DNA of 64,000 nt, taken from contig JAUJPG010000009.1 of assembly GCA_030447245.1 (NCBI GenBank), positions 1-64,000 of the forward strand. The letters run 5' to 3'. Shown here one piece after another: positions 20,790 through 33,535 of this stretch (the first letter of the stretch is position 1; every line of letters begins with the position of its first letter). Made by a program: the position numbers and the translations under genes. The notes under the pieces are model-generated. The model was not told where the DNA came from, ran no database searches, and worked only from the letters and a program-made list of their open reading frames with translations. Origin of the DNA: Chloroflexota bacterium (GTDB lineage: Bacteria > Chloroflexota > UBA6077 > JACCZL01).

Positions 20790-20834
20790 CTGATAGCGGT
20801 GGATGGTGTTCACGCGGCTGGATTGGGGGAAGAG

Positions 20835-21614
20835 ATGGGCACGACGCTAGGGCTCGACGTCGGCGTGCTGCGACGAGCCATCCAGCAAGAGTACGAGGAC
20901 GTCGCCGTCTGCCCCGCCAAGGGGTTCCACTTCCACACCGGCCGTCTGCTAGCCGAGCGGCTCGGGTATCCCGCCGAGGAGATCGACGCCGTGCCCGCGG
21001 GCTCGCTCGAGTCGTTCGCCGGCGTCGGCAACCCGTTCATCTTCGGCCACCTTCGGCCCGGTGAGACCGTCCTGGACGTCGGCTCGGGCGCCGGTTTCGA
21101 CAGCCTGATCGCGGCACGCCAGGTCGGCCCGGCCGGTCGGGTGATCGGCGTCGATATGACCGATGCGATGCTCGAGAAGGCGAGGGACGGGGCGCGGGCC
21201 ACCGGCCTGGACAACGTCGAGTTCCGCAAGGGATTGGTCGAGGAGCTGCCGCTCGATGACGCCAGCGTCGACGTGGTGATCTCCAACGGCGTGATCAACC
21301 TCTGCCCCGACAAGGAGGCGGTCCTTCGGGAGATCGCCCGCGTCCTGCGTCCGGGTGGGCGGCTCCAGATCGCGGACATCGTCGTCCAGAAGGCGGTGCC
21401 CCAGGCGGCGAAAGAGCAGATCGACCTCTGGACCGGTTGAATTGCCGGCGCTCTGCTGGAAGCAGAGTACGCGGCGCTCATGCAGGCGGCTGGCCTGGCG
21501 GAGATCGAGTTCTCGCGCGAGCGCTGGGACACCTTCGCCGACGCGCCGAGCGCCTCGAGCGCGGCAGCGTTCGGTACTCAAGGAGTGGCCCTCCGCGCGG
21601 TCAGACCAACATAG
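20835..21614 (+). CDS. ArsM-like methyltransferase with in-frame UGA (selenocysteine candidate)
   Basis: Read through UGA at 21438-21440 the protein is 259 residues, with Sec at 202. The core is a class I SAM methyltransferase: motif I TVLDVGSGAGFD (79-89), GVDMTDAMLEKA, LPLDDASVDVVISNGVINLCPDKEAV. These blocks are typical of arsenite-methyltransferase-like proteins. Relatives have a conserved Cys in the next segment, WTxCIAGAL; here the codon is UGA, then IAGALLEAEY and a normal family ending up to TAG 21612. ATG 20835 follows GGGGGAAG. A 6-7-bp hairpin with loop UGGAA lies 10 bases after UGA. A conventional call would stop at 21440 and lose about 57 residues. Whether the substrate is arsenic, selenium or something else is unknown. 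Confidence 0.85.
21451..21467 (+). promoter_or_regulatory. bacterial SECIS candidate 1
   Basis: CTCTGC (21451-21456) and GCAGAG (21462-21467) form a perfect stem, with a further G-U closing pair, around the loop UGGAA. The loop begins 16 bases after the UGA at 21438. That spacing and a loop with G residues fit the bacterial SECIS that binds SelB. Confidence 0.75.
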
Positions 21615-22145: not shown

Positions 22146-22931
22146 ATGCCGAGTGATCGGAGTGTGTTGGGTGTGAGGGCGGTCGCCGAGCTGACCGGGG
22201 ATGAGCTGCGGGCGGCCGTGCGCGACCGCTACGCGGCTGTCTCCCGGCAGCCCACGGCCGGCTACTCGTTCCGGGTTGGGCGGGAGTTCGCCGAGGCGCT
22301 CGGCTACCCACCCGAGCTACTCGAGGCTGTCCCGCCGTCGGCGACCATGGCGTTTACCGGCGTCGCCGCGCCGATTCTTCGGGCCGAGCTCTGCCCCGGC
22401 GAGTCCGTCCTGGACCTGGGCTGCGGCGGCGGCCTCGACCTGATCCTGGCGGCCCGTGCAGTCGGGTCAACGGGCAGGGCGGTTGGTGTGGACATGGTCG
22501 AGCCGATGGTCGCGCGAGCCAACGACAACCTCCGCACGCTGGGGCTCGGCTGGGCATTGGCGTGTGTCTCCTTCGCCGAGGCTTTGCCGCTTGCCGACCG
22601 GAGCGTCGACTGCGTGATCGCCAACGGCATCCTGAACCTGGCACCCGACAAGTCGGCCGTGCTGGCTGAGGTGGCGCGGGTCCTCCGTCCCGGTGGCCGC
22701 TTCGTCGTCGCCGAAACGACCCTGCGCCACGAGCTGCCGCCGGGCAGCATCCAGTGCCTCGAGGATTGGTTCCGCTGAATAGGCGGGGCCCTACCGGAAG
22801 CGTTGCTTCTGGAAGTGATCCAGGACTCCGGACTGGAGCCCATCGTCCTCGACCGTGGCCGCAACGCCCGCACCGGCTCCGAGGCGTCTCAGGTCTCGGT
22901 CATCCGCGCGCACCGTCGCCAGTCCCGATGA
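22146..22931 (+). CDS. second ArsM-like methyltransferase with in-frame UGA (selenocysteine candidate)
   Basis: Read through UGA at 22776-22778 the product is 261 residues, with Sec at 211. It is a paralogue of the methyltransferase at 20835: YSFRVGREFAEALGYPPELLEAVPPSATMAF, motif I SVLDLGCGGGLDLI, LPLADRSVDCVIANGILNLAPDKSAV. The UGA is at the same alignment position: EDWFR-U-IGGALPEALLLEVIQDSGL, against DLWTG-U-IAGALLEAEY in the first copy. About 50 more residues follow to UGA 22929. An 8-bp hairpin starts 15 bases after the UGA. The start may be ATG 22146 or a GTG at 22170. It is the last gene of the LysR-linked cluster. Confidence 0.83.
22794..22812 (+). promoter_or_regulatory. bacterial SECIS candidate 2
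   Basis: CCGGAAGC (22794-22801) and GCUUCUGG (22805-22812) form an uninterrupted 8-bp stem with one G-U pair and the apical loop GUU. The loop begins 23 bases after the UGA at 22776, inside the range known for bacterial SECIS elements. Confidence 0.72.
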
Positions 22932-25354: not shown

Positions 25355-25500
25355 GAAGATCAGCACGATCTGGTCGGCATGATAGCGCAGCCGCGCCATC
25401 CGAGTCCCGCGCCGCCGCGGCTGCTGCTGGCGGTCGCGGCCGCCGCCGACACCGCTGGCCGGGCCGAGCACGGTGGGGTTACGCTTAGGAGGTGGCTGAC

Positions 25501-25890
25501 GTGCATCACACGGTCCGACCGGCAGCGCTCGCCCGCTGGGCCGGCCTGATGCTGGTCGCACTCCTGAGCCATCTGGCGTTGATGGCCTCGCCGCTGCATG
25601 TCGCGGCCATGGACGCTGACCAGGGCGCAATGGCCGAGATGGCGACGAGTATGGACGGCGATCTGTCGAGCATGCCGTCGGGGCTCTGCCTTGCCGGCTC
25701 GAGCAACTGCATGATCGAGTGGGCATCGCCGGCGTCAAAGCTGTCGATCCACGCGCTCCTCGGTCCAGCGCTGCCCGATCGGCCGCTGTCGCTGGTTGGG
25801 GACGCCCTTGTGCCCGCTCCGTCGCCATATGCTCTGGGGCCGCCCGCGTTGGTCGACGTGCAGGTGGTTCTGCAGGTGTTCCGAATCTAG
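25501..25890 (+). CDS. small secreted or membrane protein, DUF2946-like
   Basis: 129 residues from GTG 25501, set by AGGAGG nine bases upstream. There is an N-terminal hydrophobic helix (WAGLMLVALLSHLALMASPLHVAAM) followed by a Met-rich stretch (MDADQGAMAEMATSMDGDLSSMPSG) and a Cys pair (LCLAGSSNC). Such proteins often sit next to copper genes and are called heavy-metal-associated, without known activity. It is divergent from cbtBA and the first gene before the cupredoxin selenoprotein candidate. Confidence 0.6.
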   Translation: MHHTVRPAALARWAGLMLVALLSHLALMASPLHVAAMDADQGAMAEMATSMDGDLSSMPSGLCLAGSSNCMIEWASPASKLSIHALLGPALPDRPLSLVGDALVPAPSPYALGPPALVDVQVVLQVFRI

Positions 25891-25959: not shown

Positions 25960-27081
25960 ATGCTTAGACGCTGCTTGACGCTGGGCGTGCTGCTAACGCT
26001 GGCCGCCTTCCTATTCACCGCCGTTCAGATGCAATCGGAAACCCGGACTGTCGTTTTCGCCGTGGTGGCGATCGGCATCTCGATCGTGGTGGCCACAACC
26101 ACCACCCGGTCGGCAGCCCGCTACGGCGCGAGCGGCATGGTAGCCGGGATGGCGACCATGATGGCCGCGATGGGCACGGGCCTATCGACTGGCTACGCGA
26201 CCGGCATGATCTGGGATCTCGGCTGGGCCAACCTCGTTGGGGTGCTCGCGGGCGGCACCCACGGGCTGGTGATGGGACGACGATACGGCCCGATGGCCGC
26301 TCTCGACGGCGCCGGCGGTGGCGTCATGGGAGGCTTGATGGGGCCGATGCTGGGAGTGATGCTCCTCTACCTGCCCACCAGCCTGATCCTGACGGCCATC
26401 CTGATGCTGGGCCTGCAGGCGGCGTTCAGCGTGGGCGGGGTCTACCTGGTTGTCGCCGCGGCAGGAGCCGTGGCGCCCTCAGGAATGCTCCACCGGGTCG
26501 GCCACGCCCTGGGTTCGCAGAACCAGGAGGTATCCTGCTGCCAGCCGGGGCCTGCCTTCCACCAGACGGCGGCAGGTGACCGCGCGGCATCCAGTCCTTC
26601 TCGCCGAGATGCCGCAGTGAGCGGTCCTCAACCGCGACAACGGCTGGCCGTGGCAGTCGCGGCCCTGGCGGGAGCGCTGGTGGCCCTCTTCTTCATAAGA
26701 GGCCCGGGCTCCGACCTGGTTGGAGCACGCGGCGCCTCGTCGTCGTCGCGCTCTGCCGAAGCGCCCGCGGCTCTCGCGGTCCAGCCCGTGGTGGCGACAG
26801 TCGGCGAGGATGGAGTGCAGCAACTCACGATGAGCCTGCGCTATCCGCGCTACGAGCCAAGGCTGTTGGAGGCCAAGGCCGGAGTACCGCTGCGTCTGAC
26901 GTTGGAAGCGATTGGTGACCCTGGTTGAGGACAGGTCACGCTGGTCCGAGGTCTCGGACAACGGTTGGTCGTGCGGGCAAACGGCAGTAGCACGGCCGAG
27001 TTCACCCCCCCGAAGCCTGGCGACTACACGATCAACTGCTCGATGAACATGCTCGTTGCGGCCACCCTGCGGGTCAGCTAG
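25960..27081 (+). CDS. membrane-anchored cupredoxin with in-frame UGA (selenocysteine candidate)
   Basis: Read through UGA 26926-26928 the product is 373 residues, with Sec at 323. Residues 1-175 hold about five membrane helices rich in Gly and Met (MVAGMATMMAAMG, GGVMGGLMGPMLGVM). A CC pair follows at 193-194, then another helix (229-247) and a cupredoxin domain (~275-373). In related domains the segment after GxPG begins with Cys and later has C-S-M-x-M. Here the first is UGA (GDPG-U-GQVTLVRGLG) and the second is NCSMNML, Cys360. The frame ends at TAG 27079. A 6-bp hairpin with loop GGUC stands 15 bases past UGA. Stopping at UGA would remove the metal site. It is probably a copper-handling redox protein. 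Confidence 0.85.
26944..26959 (+). promoter_or_regulatory. bacterial SECIS candidate 3
   Basis: GUCCGA (26944-26949) and UCGGAC (26954-26959) form a perfect 6-bp stem capped by GGUC. The loop starts 21 bases after the UGA at 26926. The GGUC apex closely resembles the GGUC loop of known formate-dehydrogenase SECIS elements. This is the cleanest SECIS-like hairpin in the window. Confidence 0.8.
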
Positions 27082-27087
27082 ACGCCC

Positions 27088-27807
27088 ATGCTGCCCCACG
27101 AGATCGAAATGGCAATCGGGCTGGGCGGTCCGGCCGTCGTGCTGGCCATGCTCCTGGCCGGCCTGTTCATCGGCCTGACGCCCGGCGCCTACCTGGCGGG
27201 GCCGGCCGTGCTGGGTTACATCAGCGTGGGTGCTCAGGGGCGCCGAGGTGCGTTGCTGTGGCGGGCCGTCGCCTACGTGCTTGGCGCCGCGGTCCCGTTG
27301 GCCACGCTCGGCCTGCTGCTGGGCCTGCTCGGCGATGTCGTGGTGGCGGTCTTCGCTGAGCAGGCCGTGGCCTGGTACCTGCTGGTGGCGCTGGTCTCGG
27401 GCGTGACAGGTCTGCTTCTGGCGGGACTCGTCGTGGTGCCCTTGCCGTCCTACCTGCCAATGCCGCGCCCCGCTGCCTCGTCCCGCGACGCATTCCTGTT
27501 GGGTCTACCCCTGGGATTAGCTGCCTGCCCGGCCTGCACGCCGATGCTCTTGCCAATCGCAACCGCGGCCATCATCTCCGGTGGCCCGCTCTACGGCGCA
27601 AGCCTGCTGTTCCTATTCGGACTGGGGCGCGGGATTCCAATCCTGGTCGCGGCAGCCTCGATCGAGGGACTCCGGAGGCTCCGGCGACTGATCCCTGCTG
27701 GCCTGGTCGGCCAACGCCTCGCCGGCTGGCTCCTGCTGAGCCTGAGCGTGCTGTATGTGCTCCAGGCGTTGCTGGTCTTCTTCGATCAGCCGCCGCTCTT
27801 CGTGTGA
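27088..27807 (+). CDS. CcdA/DsbD-like membrane thiol transporter
   Basis: 239 residues with about six membrane helices, seven bases after the selenium cupredoxin. CcdA-type proteins pass electrons from cytoplasmic thioredoxin across the membrane through two Cys. The second motif is present (GLAACPACTPMLLP). The first, usually SPCVLP-like, is here LTPGAYLAGPAVLGYIS without Cys. The reducing path may therefore use a different pair, perhaps the CPAC motif alone. It is likely co-transcribed with the cupredoxin, whose Sec and Cys it could keep reduced. Thioredoxin reductase lies 1.4 kb away. Confidence 0.8.
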   Translation: MLPHEIEMAIGLGGPAVVLAMLLAGLFIGLTPGAYLAGPAVLGYISVGAQGRRGALLWRAVAYVLGAAVPLATLGLLLGLLGDVVVAVFAEQAVAWYLLVALVSGVTGLLLAGLVVVPLPSYLPMPRPAASSRDAFLLGLPLGLAACPACTPMLLPIATAAIISGGPLYGASLLFLFGLGRGIPILVAAASIEGLRRLRRLIPAGLVGQRLAGWLLLSLSVLYVLQALLVFFDQPPLFV

Positions 27808-28026: not shown

Positions 28027-28896
28027 ATGACCTACCGATTGCACGTCGACCGCCGGGGACACGGCAGTCCCGCGCTGCTGTTGATCCACGGCCTTGGCGC
28101 GTCGGGACGCTACTGGGGCCGCGTGGCCAAGACTGTGCAGGCCGAGTTTCAAATCCTCTCACCCGACCTGATCGGCTTCGGCCGTTCCCCGTGGCCCAGG
28201 ATTGGCTACACGATCGACGACCACCTGGATGCCCTGGACGCAACTCTCCAGGCTGAGGGGCTAGAGCACGAGTCCCTCCTTCTAGCGGGTCACTCGCTCG
28301 GGACGATCCTGTCCCTGGCCTGGGCGGCGCGCCACCCAAGGCGGTTCCGCGGCCTCGCCCTGTTTGGACTGCCGTGCTACCGGTCGTCCGAAGAGGCCCG
28401 GCGTCATGTCGCCGGCCTCGGCCCGCTCGCCTACGCGACCGTAGCCCGACCCAAGCTGGGCGCGAGGATCTGCGCCCTGATGTGCTTCGGACGTCCATTC
28501 TGGCGCCTGGTTGCCCCTGCCCTCATGCCGCATATTCCGGCCGACGTTGCCAGAGATGGGGTCCTGCACACCTGGGAGTCGTACAACGGGACGCTGCGCC
28601 ATGGCATCCTGGACCTGGACGTCCCAGCCCTAGCCGCTCGGGTTGCTGCCACCGGGCTTGCCACCCGCTTGCTCCACGGGGATCTGGATCGGGAAGCGCC
28701 ACTGCACGGAGTCGCCGAGCTAGCCGGGTCGACCAGCTGGCCGCTCGACGTCGTGCGAGGCGCAAGCCACGGCCTCCCGATCGAACGGCCCCACGCCTGC
28801 GCCAAGGCGATCCGCGAACTGAAGGCCGCGGCGTTTGGTGGCAGCCAATACGACGCTAGAGCCAGAATTGGCCACCAGCCAAGTGGGAGGATCTGA
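28027..28896 (+). CDS. alpha/beta-hydrolase
   Basis: 289 residues. The oxyanion region LLLIHGLGASGRYWGR and nucleophile elbow LLAGHSLGTILSLAWA are standard, with Ser as nucleophile. Asp is probable in LLHGDLDREAPL, and His in VRGASHGLPIERP. It has no signal peptide. The substrate is unknown; esterases, lactonases and haloperoxidase-like proteins share this sequence pattern. It sits within the metal/redox cluster, so it might be recruited by operon position only. The reading frame begins at ATG 28027. Confidence 0.83.
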   Translation: MTYRLHVDRRGHGSPALLLIHGLGASGRYWGRVAKTVQAEFQILSPDLIGFGRSPWPRIGYTIDDHLDALDATLQAEGLEHESLLLAGHSLGTILSLAWAARHPRRFRGLALFGLPCYRSSEEARRHVAGLGPLAYATVARPKLGARICALMCFGRPFWRLVAPALMPHIPADVARDGVLHTWESYNGTLRHGILDLDVPALAARVAATGLATRLLHGDLDREAPLHGVAELAGSTSWPLDVVRGASHGLPIERPHACAKAIRELKAAAFGGSQYDARARIGHQPSGRI

Positions 28897-28900
28897 CGTG

Positions 28901-29125
28901 ATGCATGCTCCGACAGGCGTTTCCGTGCGCCACGTCGCGTTCGGGTTTGGCGCGGGCGCCCTGTTCATGGGGCTAGTGACCGTGGTGGGGACAGTGCTGG
29001 CGCAGGCGCCGTTCTTCCTGGCGGCCGACATGCAGCTGATGCTCGAGTGGTGCCGCCAGATGATGGGTCAGGCCGGCTCGGCCGCGCAGGGCATGATCAG
29101 CGGCATGTGCATGCTGGGCCGCTAG
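28901..29125 (+). CDS. small membrane protein with Met/Cys-rich tail
   Basis: 74 residues from ATG 28901 (GTG 28898 also possible), with GGAGG upstream. There is one membrane helix (FGFGAGALFMGLVTVVGTVLAQ) and a C-terminal MLEWCRQMMGQ...GMISGMCMLGR rich in Met and Cys, again suggesting copper binding. It is close behind the hydrolase gene and the last plus-strand gene of the island. I recognise no family. Confidence 0.5.
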   Translation: MHAPTGVSVRHVAFGFGAGALFMGLVTVVGTVLAQAPFFLAADMQLMLEWCRQMMGQAGSAAQGMISGMCMLGR

Positions 29126-29194: not shown

Positions 29195-30214
29195 TCAGGC
29201 GGTGGTGCCGACCGGGTGCTCGACGGCCGGGCTCTGTTCGCCGATCGCCCAGTCGGTCCAGATCTCGCCGGTGATGTACTCCTGGGCGTCGAGCGCCGCC
29301 ATGCAGCCCTCGCCGGCGGCGGTGATCGCCTGGCGATAGCGGTGGTCGCGCACGTCGCCGGCCACGAAGACGCCGGGGACGTTCGAGGCAGTGTGCTCGG
29401 TGGTGATCAGGTAGCCTTGGTCGTCCATCTCGACCTGACCCTTGAACAGCTCGGTGTTCGGCTTGTGGCCGATGGCGATGAACAGGCCCTGGATCGGCAG
29501 CGTCGACTCTTCCCCGGTGATCGTATTGCGCAAGCGCACCCCAGCCACGCCCTCGACGCCGTGCTCGTTCGTCTGGCCAAGCACCTCGAGCACCTGATTG
29601 TTCAAGGCCCACTCGATCTTCGAGTTGTTGCGCGCGCGGTCCTGCATGATCTTGGAGGCGCGCAGCCCGTCGCGGCGATGGATGATCGTCACCTTGTCCG
29701 CGTACGTCGTCAGGAACGTCGCCTCCTCCATCGCGGTGTCGCCACCGCCGACGACGGCGATCTCCTTCCCGCGGAAGAAAAAGCCATCGCAGGTGGCGCA
29801 GGACGAGACGCCTCGTCCGCGCATCCGCTCCTCGGACGGGAGCCCGAGCCACAGGGCTGAGGCGCCAGTTGCCAGGATGACGGCCTTGCCGTGGTAGGCC
29901 TCGTCCCCGACCCACGCGGTGAGCGGGCGCCTGGCGAAATCGACGCGGGTCACGTCGTCCTCGACCAGCTCGGTCCCGAACCGAACCGCCTGCTCGCGCA
30001 TCTCGTTCATCAGCTCGGGACCCATGATCCCGTCCTTGAAGCCCGGATAGTTCTCGACCTCGGTTGTCAACATGAGCTGGCCGCCGCTCTGCGCGCCGGT
30101 GAACACCAGCGTCTTCAGATTCGCACGCGACGCGTACAACGCCGCCGTCCAGCCGGCTGGTCCAGAACCGATGATCATCACGTCGTAGAACTTGCTCGGG
30201 GTACCGTTCTGCAT
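29195..30214 (-). CDS. trxB: thioredoxin reductase
   Basis: 339 residues from ATG 30214. This is a low-molecular-weight thioredoxin reductase with the FAD motif IIGSGPAGWTAALYA, the redox pair Cys139-Ala-Thr-Cys142 (SSCATCDGFFFRGK), the NADPH motif VGGGDTAMEEA and HRRDGLRASK, and the C-terminal FVAGDVRDHRYRQAITAAGEGCMAA. It transfers NADPH electrons to thioredoxin. The position next to copZ/copA and near the selenium cupredoxin and CcdA-like protein makes it a likely electron source for that pathway, though it can also be general. Confidence 0.95.
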   Translation of the reverse strand: MQNGTPSKFYDVMIIGSGPAGWTAALYASRANLKTLVFTGAQSGGQLMLTTEVENYPGFKDGIMGPELMNEMREQAVRFGTELVEDDVTRVDFARRPLTAWVGDEAYHGKAVILATGASALWLGLPSEERMRGRGVSSCATCDGFFFRGKEIAVVGGGDTAMEEATFLTTYADKVTIIHRRDGLRASKIMQDRARNNSKIEWALNNQVLEVLGQTNEHGVEGVAGVRLRNTITGEESTLPIQGLFIAIGHKPNTELFKGQVEMDDQGYLITTEHTASNVPGVFVAGDVRDHRYRQAITAAGEGCMAALDAQEYITGEIWTDWAIGEQSPAVEHPVGTTA

Positions 30215-30224
30215 GGAAGCCTCC

Positions 30225-30443
30225 TCAACCGGCGACCGACTCGACCGGATACTCCTCCTCGCGGAGGATCTCCTGGATGCGGTCGAGGCCGACGGACGAC
30301 GCATCGTAATCGACGCGGACTTGTTTGGCGGGGATGTCGACGTCCACGGCGCGGACGCCGGGAACGGGGGTCAGCGCGTTCGTGATGGTCTTCTGGCAAT
30401 GCTCGCAGGAGATGTCGGGAACGTTCAAGATCGTCTGTGCCAT
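30225..30443 (-). CDS. copZ: heavy-metal-associated (CopZ-like) copper chaperone
   Basis: 72 residues from ATG 30443 with GAGAGG upstream. It is a single ferredoxin-like HMA domain with the metal motif CEHC (residues ~13-16) in VPDISCEHCQKTI. It follows copA, 80 bases on, and lies 10 bases before trxB on the same strand, so they probably form one operon: csoR, copA, copZ, trxB. It most likely carries Cu(I) to the ATPase. Confidence 0.88.
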   Translation of the reverse strand: MAQTILNVPDISCEHCQKTITNALTPVPGVRAVDVDIPAKQVRVDYDASSVGLDRIQEILREEEYPVESVAG

Positions 30444-30523
30444 GGTACTGCCTCTCTCACTTGTGCGTGGAAGCGGTCGCGGTCTGCTCATGGTCGACCT
30501 GGGACCCGCCCCGTCGGGGTGTA

Positions 30524-32899
30524 TCACCCAGACCACGAGTGCGTATGGTGGAACGCCGTCAGCGGTCGGAATGATTCCGGCAAGATGTCGCCGAAAGTTG
30601 GGCTCGGGCCGGACGTGGGATGCGTTGGGCTCGAGTGCGTGGTGTCGTGATGGGGGGCGTCGATCCCGGTGCCGGTCGCGTGCTCCGGCCTGGCCAGCGC
30701 CAGGGCGGCGAATCCGACCCCGAGCGCCAGGAGCGCGATCGTAGCCAGGTACGCGTACTCGCCCACCCGCGAGCGCAGCGACGGGTGCAGAATCTCCCGG
30801 GCATCCCGCGGGGGACGGAAGCCGCGCAGCCGCAATGCGTTGGTGACCACGCTCACGCTGCTCATCGCCATCGCGGCCGCCGCGAGCACCGGGTTCAGCA
30901 GCACGCCGAACACGGGGTACAGCGCGCCCATCGCGACCGGAAGCAGCAAGACGTTATAGGCGAATGCCCAGAAGAGACCCTGCTTGATCACCCCGACCGT
31001 CTTGCGCGACAGCGCGATCGCCGTCACAACGCCCCGCAGTGAGCTGCCGATCAGCGTGATGTCTGAGGCCGCGATTGCGACGTCGGTGCCGGTCCCAATC
31101 GCAATGCCCAGGTTGGCGCGGGCCAACGCCGGTGCGTCGTTGATCCCGTCGCCGACCATCGCGACCGTCCTGCCCTCCTCCTGGAGCTCCCGGACCTTGT
31201 CAGCCTTCTGCTCCGGCAGGACCTCGGCCATGATGTGCTCGATGCCGACGTCGTCGGCGATCGTCTGCGCCGTGGCGCGGTTGTCGCCCGTGAGCATCCA
31301 GACGTCGAGCCCGAGTGCCCGCAGCTGCTCGACCGTCAGGCGAGATTCGGGCTTCAGCGTGTCCGCGACGGCGATGACGCCGGCCTCGCGTCCGTCGATT
31401 GCCACGTACATCGGCGTCGCGCCACCGCGCGCCAGCCCCTCGGCCTGCTCGCTTAGCCCATCCAACCCAACGCCGGCGTGCTCCATCAACGCACGGTTGC
31501 CTAGGGCCAGCTCGCGGCCATCCACCCGCGCCCGGACGCCCTGGCCGCCGACTGACGCAAAGTTTTCGGCTTTCGGGAGGTGGAGCCCTAGCTCGTGGGC
31601 ACGGGCGACGATCGCCTCGCCGAGCGGGTGCTCGGAGCCGACTTCCACGGCGGCCGCCAGCCGCAGCAGATCCAGATCCGAGAGTCCGCCCTTCGGAATC
31701 ACGTCAGTGACCGTCGGCGTGCCACGGGTCAACGTGCCGGTCTTGTCCAGGATGATCGTGTCGATGCGGCGCGCCTGCTCCAGCGCCTCGCCGCCCCGGA
31801 TCAGGATGCCGTGGTCGGCGCCCTTGCCAGTCCCGACCATGATCGCGGTCGGCGTCGCCAGCCCGAGGGCGCAGGGGCAGGCAATGATCAGCACGGCAAT
31901 CGCCGCTTGCAGCGCGAGGGTCAGCCGAGGCTCCGGTCCGAGCAGCAGCCAACCCAGGAAGGTTAGCGCCGCCAGCGCCAGCACGGCCGGCACGAAGTAG
32001 CCGGAGATCGTGTCGGCCAGGCGCTGCATCGGCGCCTTGGAGCCCTGAGCCTCCTCCACCAGGCGGACGATCTGGGCCAACGCTGTGTCTGCCCCAACCC
32101 TGGTCGCCTCGAAGACGACACTGCCGCTGGTGTTCAGCGTGGCGCCGATCACCTCGTCGCCCGGTCCCTTGTCGACCGGCAGGCTCTCGCCGGTCAGCAT
32201 GCTCTCGTCCAGGCTCGAGCGGCCCTCGCGAATCACACCGTCCGTCGGGACTTTCTCGCCCGGCCGAACGCGGATCAGGTCGCCGACACGCAGCGTCTCG
32301 ACCGGCACATCCTGCTCGAGACCGTCGCGAATGACCCTGGCCGTCCTGACTTGCAGCCCCATCAGCGCGCTGATCGCCGCGCCCGTCTGCTTCTTGGCGC
32401 GGGCCTCGAGCCAGCGGCCAAGCAGGATCAGCGCGATGATGATCACCGCCGTTTCGTAGTACAGGTGGTACTGGAAGCCCCAACGCGCGGCCAGCGTTGG
32501 CCAGAGCGTGACAAACGCGCTGTAGCCGTATGCCACGCTCGTCCCGACTGCCACAAGCGTGTTCATGTTGGTGCTACCGTGCCGGGCGGCCGCCCAGGCG
32601 GCGCGGTAGAAGACACGTCCCGCCCACACCTGCACGACCGTCGCGGCGATCAGCAGCGCCGGCGCTACCAGCGTCATATCCAGATCGAGCGGCAGGTACA
32701 TCAGCGCCATCATCACCAGGCCAACCGCCAGGCTGACCAGCGACGTGCGGCGAAGGTCGTCGACCTCGCGCTGGCCCTCCTCGCTCTCGGAAGCGGAGGC
32801 CGCTTGGCCGTTGGCGCGGGCCTCCGCGCTCGCCTCGTCGAGATCGGTCGGCGCCGCGGCCCGCCGCCGCCGGTCCGAGGGCGGGCATCTCGCCCACAC
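30524..32899 (-). CDS. copA: copper-translocating P-type ATPase, main part (CopA)
   Basis: P1B-type ATPase of at least 740 residues. It has eight membrane helices, the transport site CPC in [15 protein letters not shown], phosphorylation site DKTGT, the HP loop SEHPLG, ATP hinge MLTGDN and [11 protein letters not shown]. The C-terminal 60 residues are His-rich and polar ([13 protein letters not shown]), a likely metal-binding tail. Its N-terminal HMA domain is encoded upstream in a different frame (33155 to ~32880), so the gene is frameshifted. Because both parts keep good codon pattern and csoR is next to it, I read it as one copA with a base indel, perhaps an assembly error. Confidence 0.9.
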
Positions 32900-33155
32900 C
32901 GTAGCCTGCGCCTTCGACCGCGGCCTTCAATCGCTCGGGCGCGGCGGTCGCCGGATCGTACGCCACCGTGGCCCGCTCGGTCGCGAGGTTGACCGTCGCT
33001 TCTTGCACGCCGTCCAGCCTACCGAGGGCCTTCTCGATGCGACGTACGCAGCTTGCACAGGTCATCCCCGTGACCGGGAACGTGACCCGTTTCAGCTCGC
33101 CGTCCTCGGCCTGCCCTTCGCCCGCTGCTCGCTGTTCGACTGCCATCATCGTCAC
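32870..33155 (-). CDS. copA: N-terminal HMA domain of CopA in another frame
   Basis: From GTG 33155 the frame gives an HMA metal-binding domain ([27 protein letters not shown]) to [14 protein letters not shown] and then loses homology. The main ATPase frame is displaced by +1 and open from 32899. The exact shift lies between about 32890 and 32860, near a GGCGGCGGCGGG run. The GTG overlaps the csoR stop (GTGA), as in coupled translation. The relation is a +1 shift, not the -1 known for E. coli copA programmed frameshifting, so I take it as an indel. Confidence 0.8.
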
Positions 33156-33415
33156 CGTCTGGCGAGCTGGAACAGCTCGTTCAGCTCGCCAATAACCGTC
33201 TCGTCGCGCCCCGCGCGGAAGCCATCGCGCACGCAGCCGTCGAGATGGCCGTTGAGCAGCACGCCTTCAAGCTTGTCGATGGCCCGCCTGACGGCGTACG
33301 TCTGCTTCAGGACGTCGACGCAATACTGGTCGTCCTCGACCATCTTGCGGATGCCCTTGAGATGGCCCTCGATGTACGCGAGGCGCTTCAGCACGTCCTT
33401 CTTGTGCGCCTGCAT
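33152..33415 (-). CDS. csoR: copper-sensing repressor CsoR
   Basis: 87 residues from ATG 33415. The copper triad is complete: Cys32 (QYCVDV), His57 and Cys61 (LNGHLDGCV), with the canonical CsoR spacing. It opens the minus-strand cop operon and overlaps the copA start by 4 bp. Cu(I) binding should release it from the operator and induce export. GGAGGCGG is just upstream, and a long inverted repeat (33424-33457) lies ahead of the start. Confidence 0.92.
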   Translation of the reverse strand: MQAHKKDVLKRLAYIEGHLKGIRKMVEDDQYCVDVLKQTYAVRRAIDKLEGVLLNGHLDGCVRDGFRAGRDETVIGELNELFQLARR

Positions 33416-33423
33416 CTCCGCCT

Positions 33424-33457
33424 CCCCAGACCCTACCCACTGGGAGGGGGTCTGGGG
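33424..33457. promoter_or_regulatory. CsoR operator or hairpin upstream of csoR
   Basis: CCCCAGACCC (33424-33433) and GGGTCTGGGG (33448-33457) are perfect 10-bp inverted arms 14 bases apart, immediately upstream of csoR. The G/C-tract architecture resembles known CsoR operators. A transcript hairpin is the alternative. The element ends about 9 bases before the csoR start. Confidence 0.55.
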
Positions 33458-33535
33458 GAAGTATGCCACGCCCCGCCACCTTGTGCAACCGTCCCGTGCC
33501 CCGGCCCCGCGGGGCCGGGGCAGAATCCTACGATC

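Follow-up and report, generated by a model that had tools for sequence, protein, structure and literature searches.

CupA of Streptococcus pneumoniae (PDB 4f2e, 2mry) is a membrane-anchored Cu(I) chaperone with a Cupredoxin_1 fold. One Cu(I) ion is held by C74 and C111 and the other by C74, M113, and M115 (PMC5646241); one cysteine bridges both Cu(I) ions (PMC7558416). In vitro, CupA also reduces Cu(II) through C74 and C111, and the source of the electrons for the resetting step was left open (PMC5646241). The same domain, with the same Cys position, forms the metal-binding domain at the N terminus of pneumococcal CopA. Chemists have placed selenium in cupredoxin sites.

Selenocysteine (Sec) is found naturally in metal handling. 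The metal-linked selenoproteins described to date include CopZ-family 2Fe-2S proteins, the SO_0444 Cu/Zn efflux transporter, MerT, a cation ATPase, and TsoB, none of which is listed as a cupredoxin (PMC13188914). A 2026 census covering 119 families of prokaryotic selenoproteins lists no cupredoxin, and our full-text searches of papers available without a subscription returned no natural selenoprotein of the cupredoxin fold. The gene analyzed here resembles the proteins listed above in its predicted use of Sec in metal handling. Selenoproteins and the CupA-type domain are both already known; what is new is a predicted seleno form of this domain in a new architecture.

A UGA codon lies at the conserved cysteine of a CupA-type domain

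The gene runs from an ATG start to a TAG stop at positions 25960 to 27081 on the plus strand of the window, our term for the whole 64,000-nucleotide stretch of DNA that was analyzed. Its frame has a single interruption, a TGA at 26926 to 26928 (plus strand; residue 323), and with this UGA read as Sec it encodes a CupA-like protein of 373 residues. Around codon 323 the sequence is GDPG-U-GQVTLVRG...NCSMNMLVAATLRVS, followed by the TAG. The UGA falls inside a Cupredoxin_1 domain of the CupA type (PF13473; 26815 to 27060, plus strand; Pfam E value, 8.6e-7, above the gathering score). The best sequence match among solved structures was CupA (2mry/4f2e; E value, 0.0024), and the pneumococcal CopA metal-binding domain (4f2f) came next. 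No NCBIfam model matched the protein even at an E value of ≤1.

The UGA codon aligns with C74 of CupA. A sequence-only reading of this DNA had proposed that it replaces the first Cys of related cupredoxin domains and had named homologs without Cys at this place as one possible refutation. We sampled about 300 genomes of the phylum for CupA-type relatives, and all 24 of the 24 alignable sequences have Cys at the UGA column, with no gaps around it. One plastocyanin-like outlier had Val there. The C-terminal end of the domain was also read correctly as NCSMNML. It contains C360-S-M362-N-M364 (27037 to 27051, plus strand), the remaining predicted Cu(I) ligands, which align with C111, M113, and M115 of CupA. 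The spacing of U323, C360, M362, and M364 (37, +2, and +4) is identical to that of CupA C74, C111, M113, and M115. By this match, Sec323 stands at the position of the bridging ligand, and the predicted Sec takes the place of the cysteine shared by both Cu(I) ions of a CupA-type site.

Structure modeling of the domain, a check suggested together with that reading, led to the same protein. A template-free, single-sequence AlphaFold2 model (pLDDT, 71.8; pTM, 0.63) had CupA (4f2e) as its top Foldseek match in the PDB (E value, 4.1e-6; TM scores, 0.68/0.71) and the metal-binding domain of CopA (4f2f) as its second (E value, 5.5e-6). A blue (type 1) copper site of the His-Cys-His-Met kind was considered and rejected, as the ligand positions hold no His and have U, C, M, and M instead. 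The predicted site is of the soft Cu(I) Cys/Cys/Met/Met type found in CupA and in the pneumococcal CopA metal-binding domain. The earlier suggestion of a copper or redox center that uses Sec is thus upheld and can be refined to a CupA-type Cu(I) site rather than blue copper. Copper binding by the protein is likely.

The domain is joined to a Met-rich membrane module

The original description, in which a multihelix, Met-rich membrane part is combined with a cupredoxin domain that has Sec in place of its first Cys, is supported by the analysis, and the homologs did not refute it. By hydropathy, the membrane part is a Met/Gly-rich module spanning about residues 30 to 172 (26047 to 26475, plus strand), and it contains the segment GMVAGMATMMAAM as well as GGVMGGLMGPMLGVM. 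No Pfam family covers it. Relatives of the module in other genomes (L014 and L015), which share 39 to 42% identity with it, have a C-terminal YHS metal-binding domain instead of a cupredoxin and are without Sec. As the homologous module carries YHS in these proteins and a cupredoxin in the window protein, it recombines with different metal-binding domains; the L014/L015 type is a metal-handling module family without Pfam coverage. Both of these standalone Met-rich membrane proteins are encoded beside efflux adaptor-like genes. The module was absent from a plasmid search.

The protein is like CupA in being membrane anchored and in being encoded near a copper ATPase gene. It differs from CupA in having Sec for C74, a multihelix Met-rich module in place of the single N-terminal helix, and a CcdA-like partner gene. 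The positive-inside rule, applied to the charged loops, would place its cupredoxin domain outside the cell membrane, in contrast to the cytoplasmic domain of CupA; this predicted topology is uncertain, as is the number of helices given by hydropathy. The pneumococcal CopA metal-binding domain and the Cys relatives that are part of P-type ATPases (L024, L030, L035, and L039) share the domain and the Cys position with the window protein; they are of the Cys form, with the domain at the ATPase N terminus.

The gene is located in a copper efflux locus

Seven nucleotides past the TAG of the CupA-like gene begins a gene for a CcdA/DsbD-like membrane electron transfer protein with a CPAC motif (27088 to 27807, plus strand; PF13386, E value of 3.5e-8; PF02683, E value of 4.5e-7), and the two genes are probably cotranscribed. 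The sole NCBIfam match of this neighbor, far below the cutoff, was to the DsbD-like portion of TsoB, a selenoprotein (E value, 3.2e-12); this portion is related to the neighbor. Farther on, the minus strand carries genes for a thioredoxin reductase of the Cys form (CATC; 29195 to 30304; TIGR01292, 406.7 bits), a CopZ-like HMA copper chaperone (30225 to 30536; PF00403, E value of 2.5e-15), a CopA-type Cu(I) P-type ATPase (30524 to 33155; TIGR01511, 639.7 bits), and a CsoR/RicR-type metal-sensing repressor (33152 to 33469; PF02583, E value of 1.8e-24; best NCBIfam match RicR, below the cutoff). The local CopA differs from the pneumococcal system in that its N-terminal segment is HMA-like (GMTCASC).

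The copA reading frame is broken into two overlapping parts, suggesting either a recent frameshift or an indel introduced in the draft assembly. Two short Met-containing frames without Pfam matches flank the locus (25492 to 25890 and 28835 to 29125, plus strand) and possibly encode small metal-binding or membrane proteins.

A link to copper genes is also seen in other genomes. Cys relatives are fused to, or lie beside, heavy-metal ATPase and copper chaperone genes. In a genome from another class of the phylum, the homolog with a UGA codon (L013, described below) is beside a heavy-metal P-type ATPase gene and a multicopper oxidase-like gene, as read from translations rather than from profile searches. 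The plasmid search yielded one Cys relative, from Deinococcus peraridilitoris, which is located directly 3′ of a heavy-metal ATPase gene. Scans of viral contigs with the cupredoxin domain returned no relatives.

These surroundings bear on what the site would do if Sec is inserted. The protein might bind no copper in the cell and act chiefly in thiol/selenol redox chemistry, forming a Sec-Cys relay together with the CcdA-like protein. The CcdA/DsbD-like gene directly 3′ and the thioredoxin reductase gene nearby would fit such a relay, and a redox function is assumed for the majority of selenoproteins (PMC13188914). We nevertheless consider this unlikely, since U323, C360, M362, and M364 match the four Cu(I) ligands of CupA in their spacing, the Met ligands would serve no purpose in a disulfide relay, the top match by fold is CupA with Cu(I) bound, and the neighborhood is a copper efflux locus. 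Alternatively, the Se-S site could serve a different soft metal or a metalloid (Hg, Ag, or As) within a metal(loid) resistance island. Two Sec-type arsenite methyltransferase-like genes lie about 3 to 5 kb upstream, and a link to Hg or As is known for several metal resistance selenoproteins (PMC13188914). This seems quite unlikely given the CupA-type ligand set, the copper-type neighbors (CopA, CopZ-like, and CsoR/RicR-like), and the heavy-metal ATPase and copper chaperone genes to which the Cys relatives are fused or adjacent.

The UGA codon recurs and the sequence past it appears to be coding

Two other genes have a UGA at the equivalent place. One is L013, whose product is 50% identical over residues 33 to 372. 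The other is a damaged paralog elsewhere in the window's own genome, on contig C91. Among the genomes sampled in the phylum, the gene was found in only two. The paralog (L042; 1191 to 2467, minus strand) has both the UGA and a hairpin identical to that of the window gene, is frameshifted in several places, and has a linker that resembles a DnaJ domain (HYGLLGVPLDATTSEIAEAF). Like the window gene, it is followed by a CcdA-like frame.

Past the UGA, the window gene and the C91 paralog differ by 38 nucleotide changes, distributed 13/5/20 over the three codon positions; of the changed codons, 16 are synonymous and 13 are not. Judged by this pattern, the changes look coding. The window gene and L013 have 63% nucleotide identity past the UGA (54 of 147 positions differ), and both retain the frame and all of the Cu ligands.

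The hairpin with a GGUC loop that had been noted 15 bases past the UGA is confirmed. This bacterial SECIS (bSECIS)-like element, GUCCGA-GGUC-UCGGAC (26944 to 26959, plus strand), starts exactly 15 nt past the UGA, has a perfect stem of 6 bp, reaches its loop at 21 nt, and is within the limits of the published bSECIS model. Its 16 nucleotides are identical in the window gene, L013, and the C91 paralog; in the class-distant L013, this identity of 16/16 compares with 63% overall past the UGA. The segment encodes VRGLG in the Sec genes, whereas the Cys relatives mostly have something resembling FPDFG or LADFG there. The two strands of the window contain 1,288 TGA triplets. Just 4 of them have, 8 to 25 nt farther on, a GGTN tetraloop on a perfect 6-bp stem, and 2 of these 4 share the hairpin at 26944 to 26959. 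The other two, with GGTC hairpins (36335, plus strand, and 9672, minus strand), were dropped; each terminates a short frame (39 and 42 codons). The folding energy of the hairpin was not unusual for the local composition (z score, −0.44). We therefore based the weight of the hairpin evidence on loop sequence, position, and conservation and left folding energy out.

The source genome encodes the machinery for Sec insertion: tRNA-Sec (69.6 bits, with an additional ARAGORN call), selB (331.8 bits), an adjoining selA (547.1 bits), and selD (393.9 bits), which carries an in-frame TGA of its own. In the genome of L013, selA and selB were present, and a search of this 89% complete draft did not find tRNA-Sec. 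Together, the Cys column in the relatives, the recurrence of the UGA, the conservation of the hairpin, the Sec machinery, and the coding signal past the UGA argue that 25960 to 27081 is almost certainly a selenoprotein gene whose UGA would be read as Sec in vivo. In a rival reading, the UGA is either a genuine stop codon or, in a damaged gene, an artifact of sequencing or assembly, with a protein ending in mid-domain and the rest a relic. This would fit the draft indels nearby (the split copA and the frameshifted C91 paralog) and the ordinary hairpin energy, but it is highly improbable. The UGA is at the equivalent codon in two other genes, one of them in an independently assembled genome of another class; L013 and the window gene preserve the frame and every Cu ligand past it; the changes look coding; the hairpin is identical across genes; and a stop there would remove C360, M362, and M364.

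Two other genes in the window have in-frame UGA codons. These arsenite methyltransferase-like genes (20799 to 21611 and 22146 to 22928, plus strand) have UGA at 21438 and 22776, each preceding an IAGAL/IGGAL sequence and a hairpin, and they fit the known family of Sec-containing ArsM proteins (UxxG). The window therefore probably holds at least three selenoprotein genes.

A proposed role in copper handling

Taken as a whole, the most plausible explanation, and a fairly probable one, is that the gene encodes a Sec-containing CupA-type Cu(I) chaperone that is attached to a Met-rich membrane module and perhaps also reduces Cu(II). The GGUC hairpin, together with the SelA, SelB, SelD, and tRNA-Sec encoded by the source genome, would direct the ribosome to read the UGA at 26926 as Sec. 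The resulting protein, with its CupA-type cupredoxin domain attached to the Met-rich membrane module, would act as a membrane copper chaperone. Its Se/S pair may donate electrons to Cu(II) and become a selenenyl-sulfide; the CcdA-like protein could then reset the pair with electrons supplied by thioredoxin reductase and thioredoxin. Cu(I) would then move on to the Met-rich membrane part or to efflux machinery. The hand-off from CupA to CopA known from pneumococcus cannot be assumed, because the local CopA has an HMA-like N terminus without a cupredoxin N domain.

The Cu(II) reductase cycle is a guess and should be regarded as tentative. A fuller scheme, in which the selenolate bridges two Cu(I) ions, the protein is both a membrane cupric reductase and a Cu(I) chaperone, a dedicated CcdA-like protein rereduces it across the membrane, and a Met-rich Cu(I) conduit is fed, is doubtful as a complete account.

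If the gene is translated as proposed, it would provide a natural selenolate-copper(I) site and would add a fold to the known selenoproteome. It would also make it possible to test directly what advantage Sec has over Cys when copper is bound and reduced. Further, the CcdA-like neighbor hints at where the electrons that reset CupA might come from, which was left open previously (PMC5646241).
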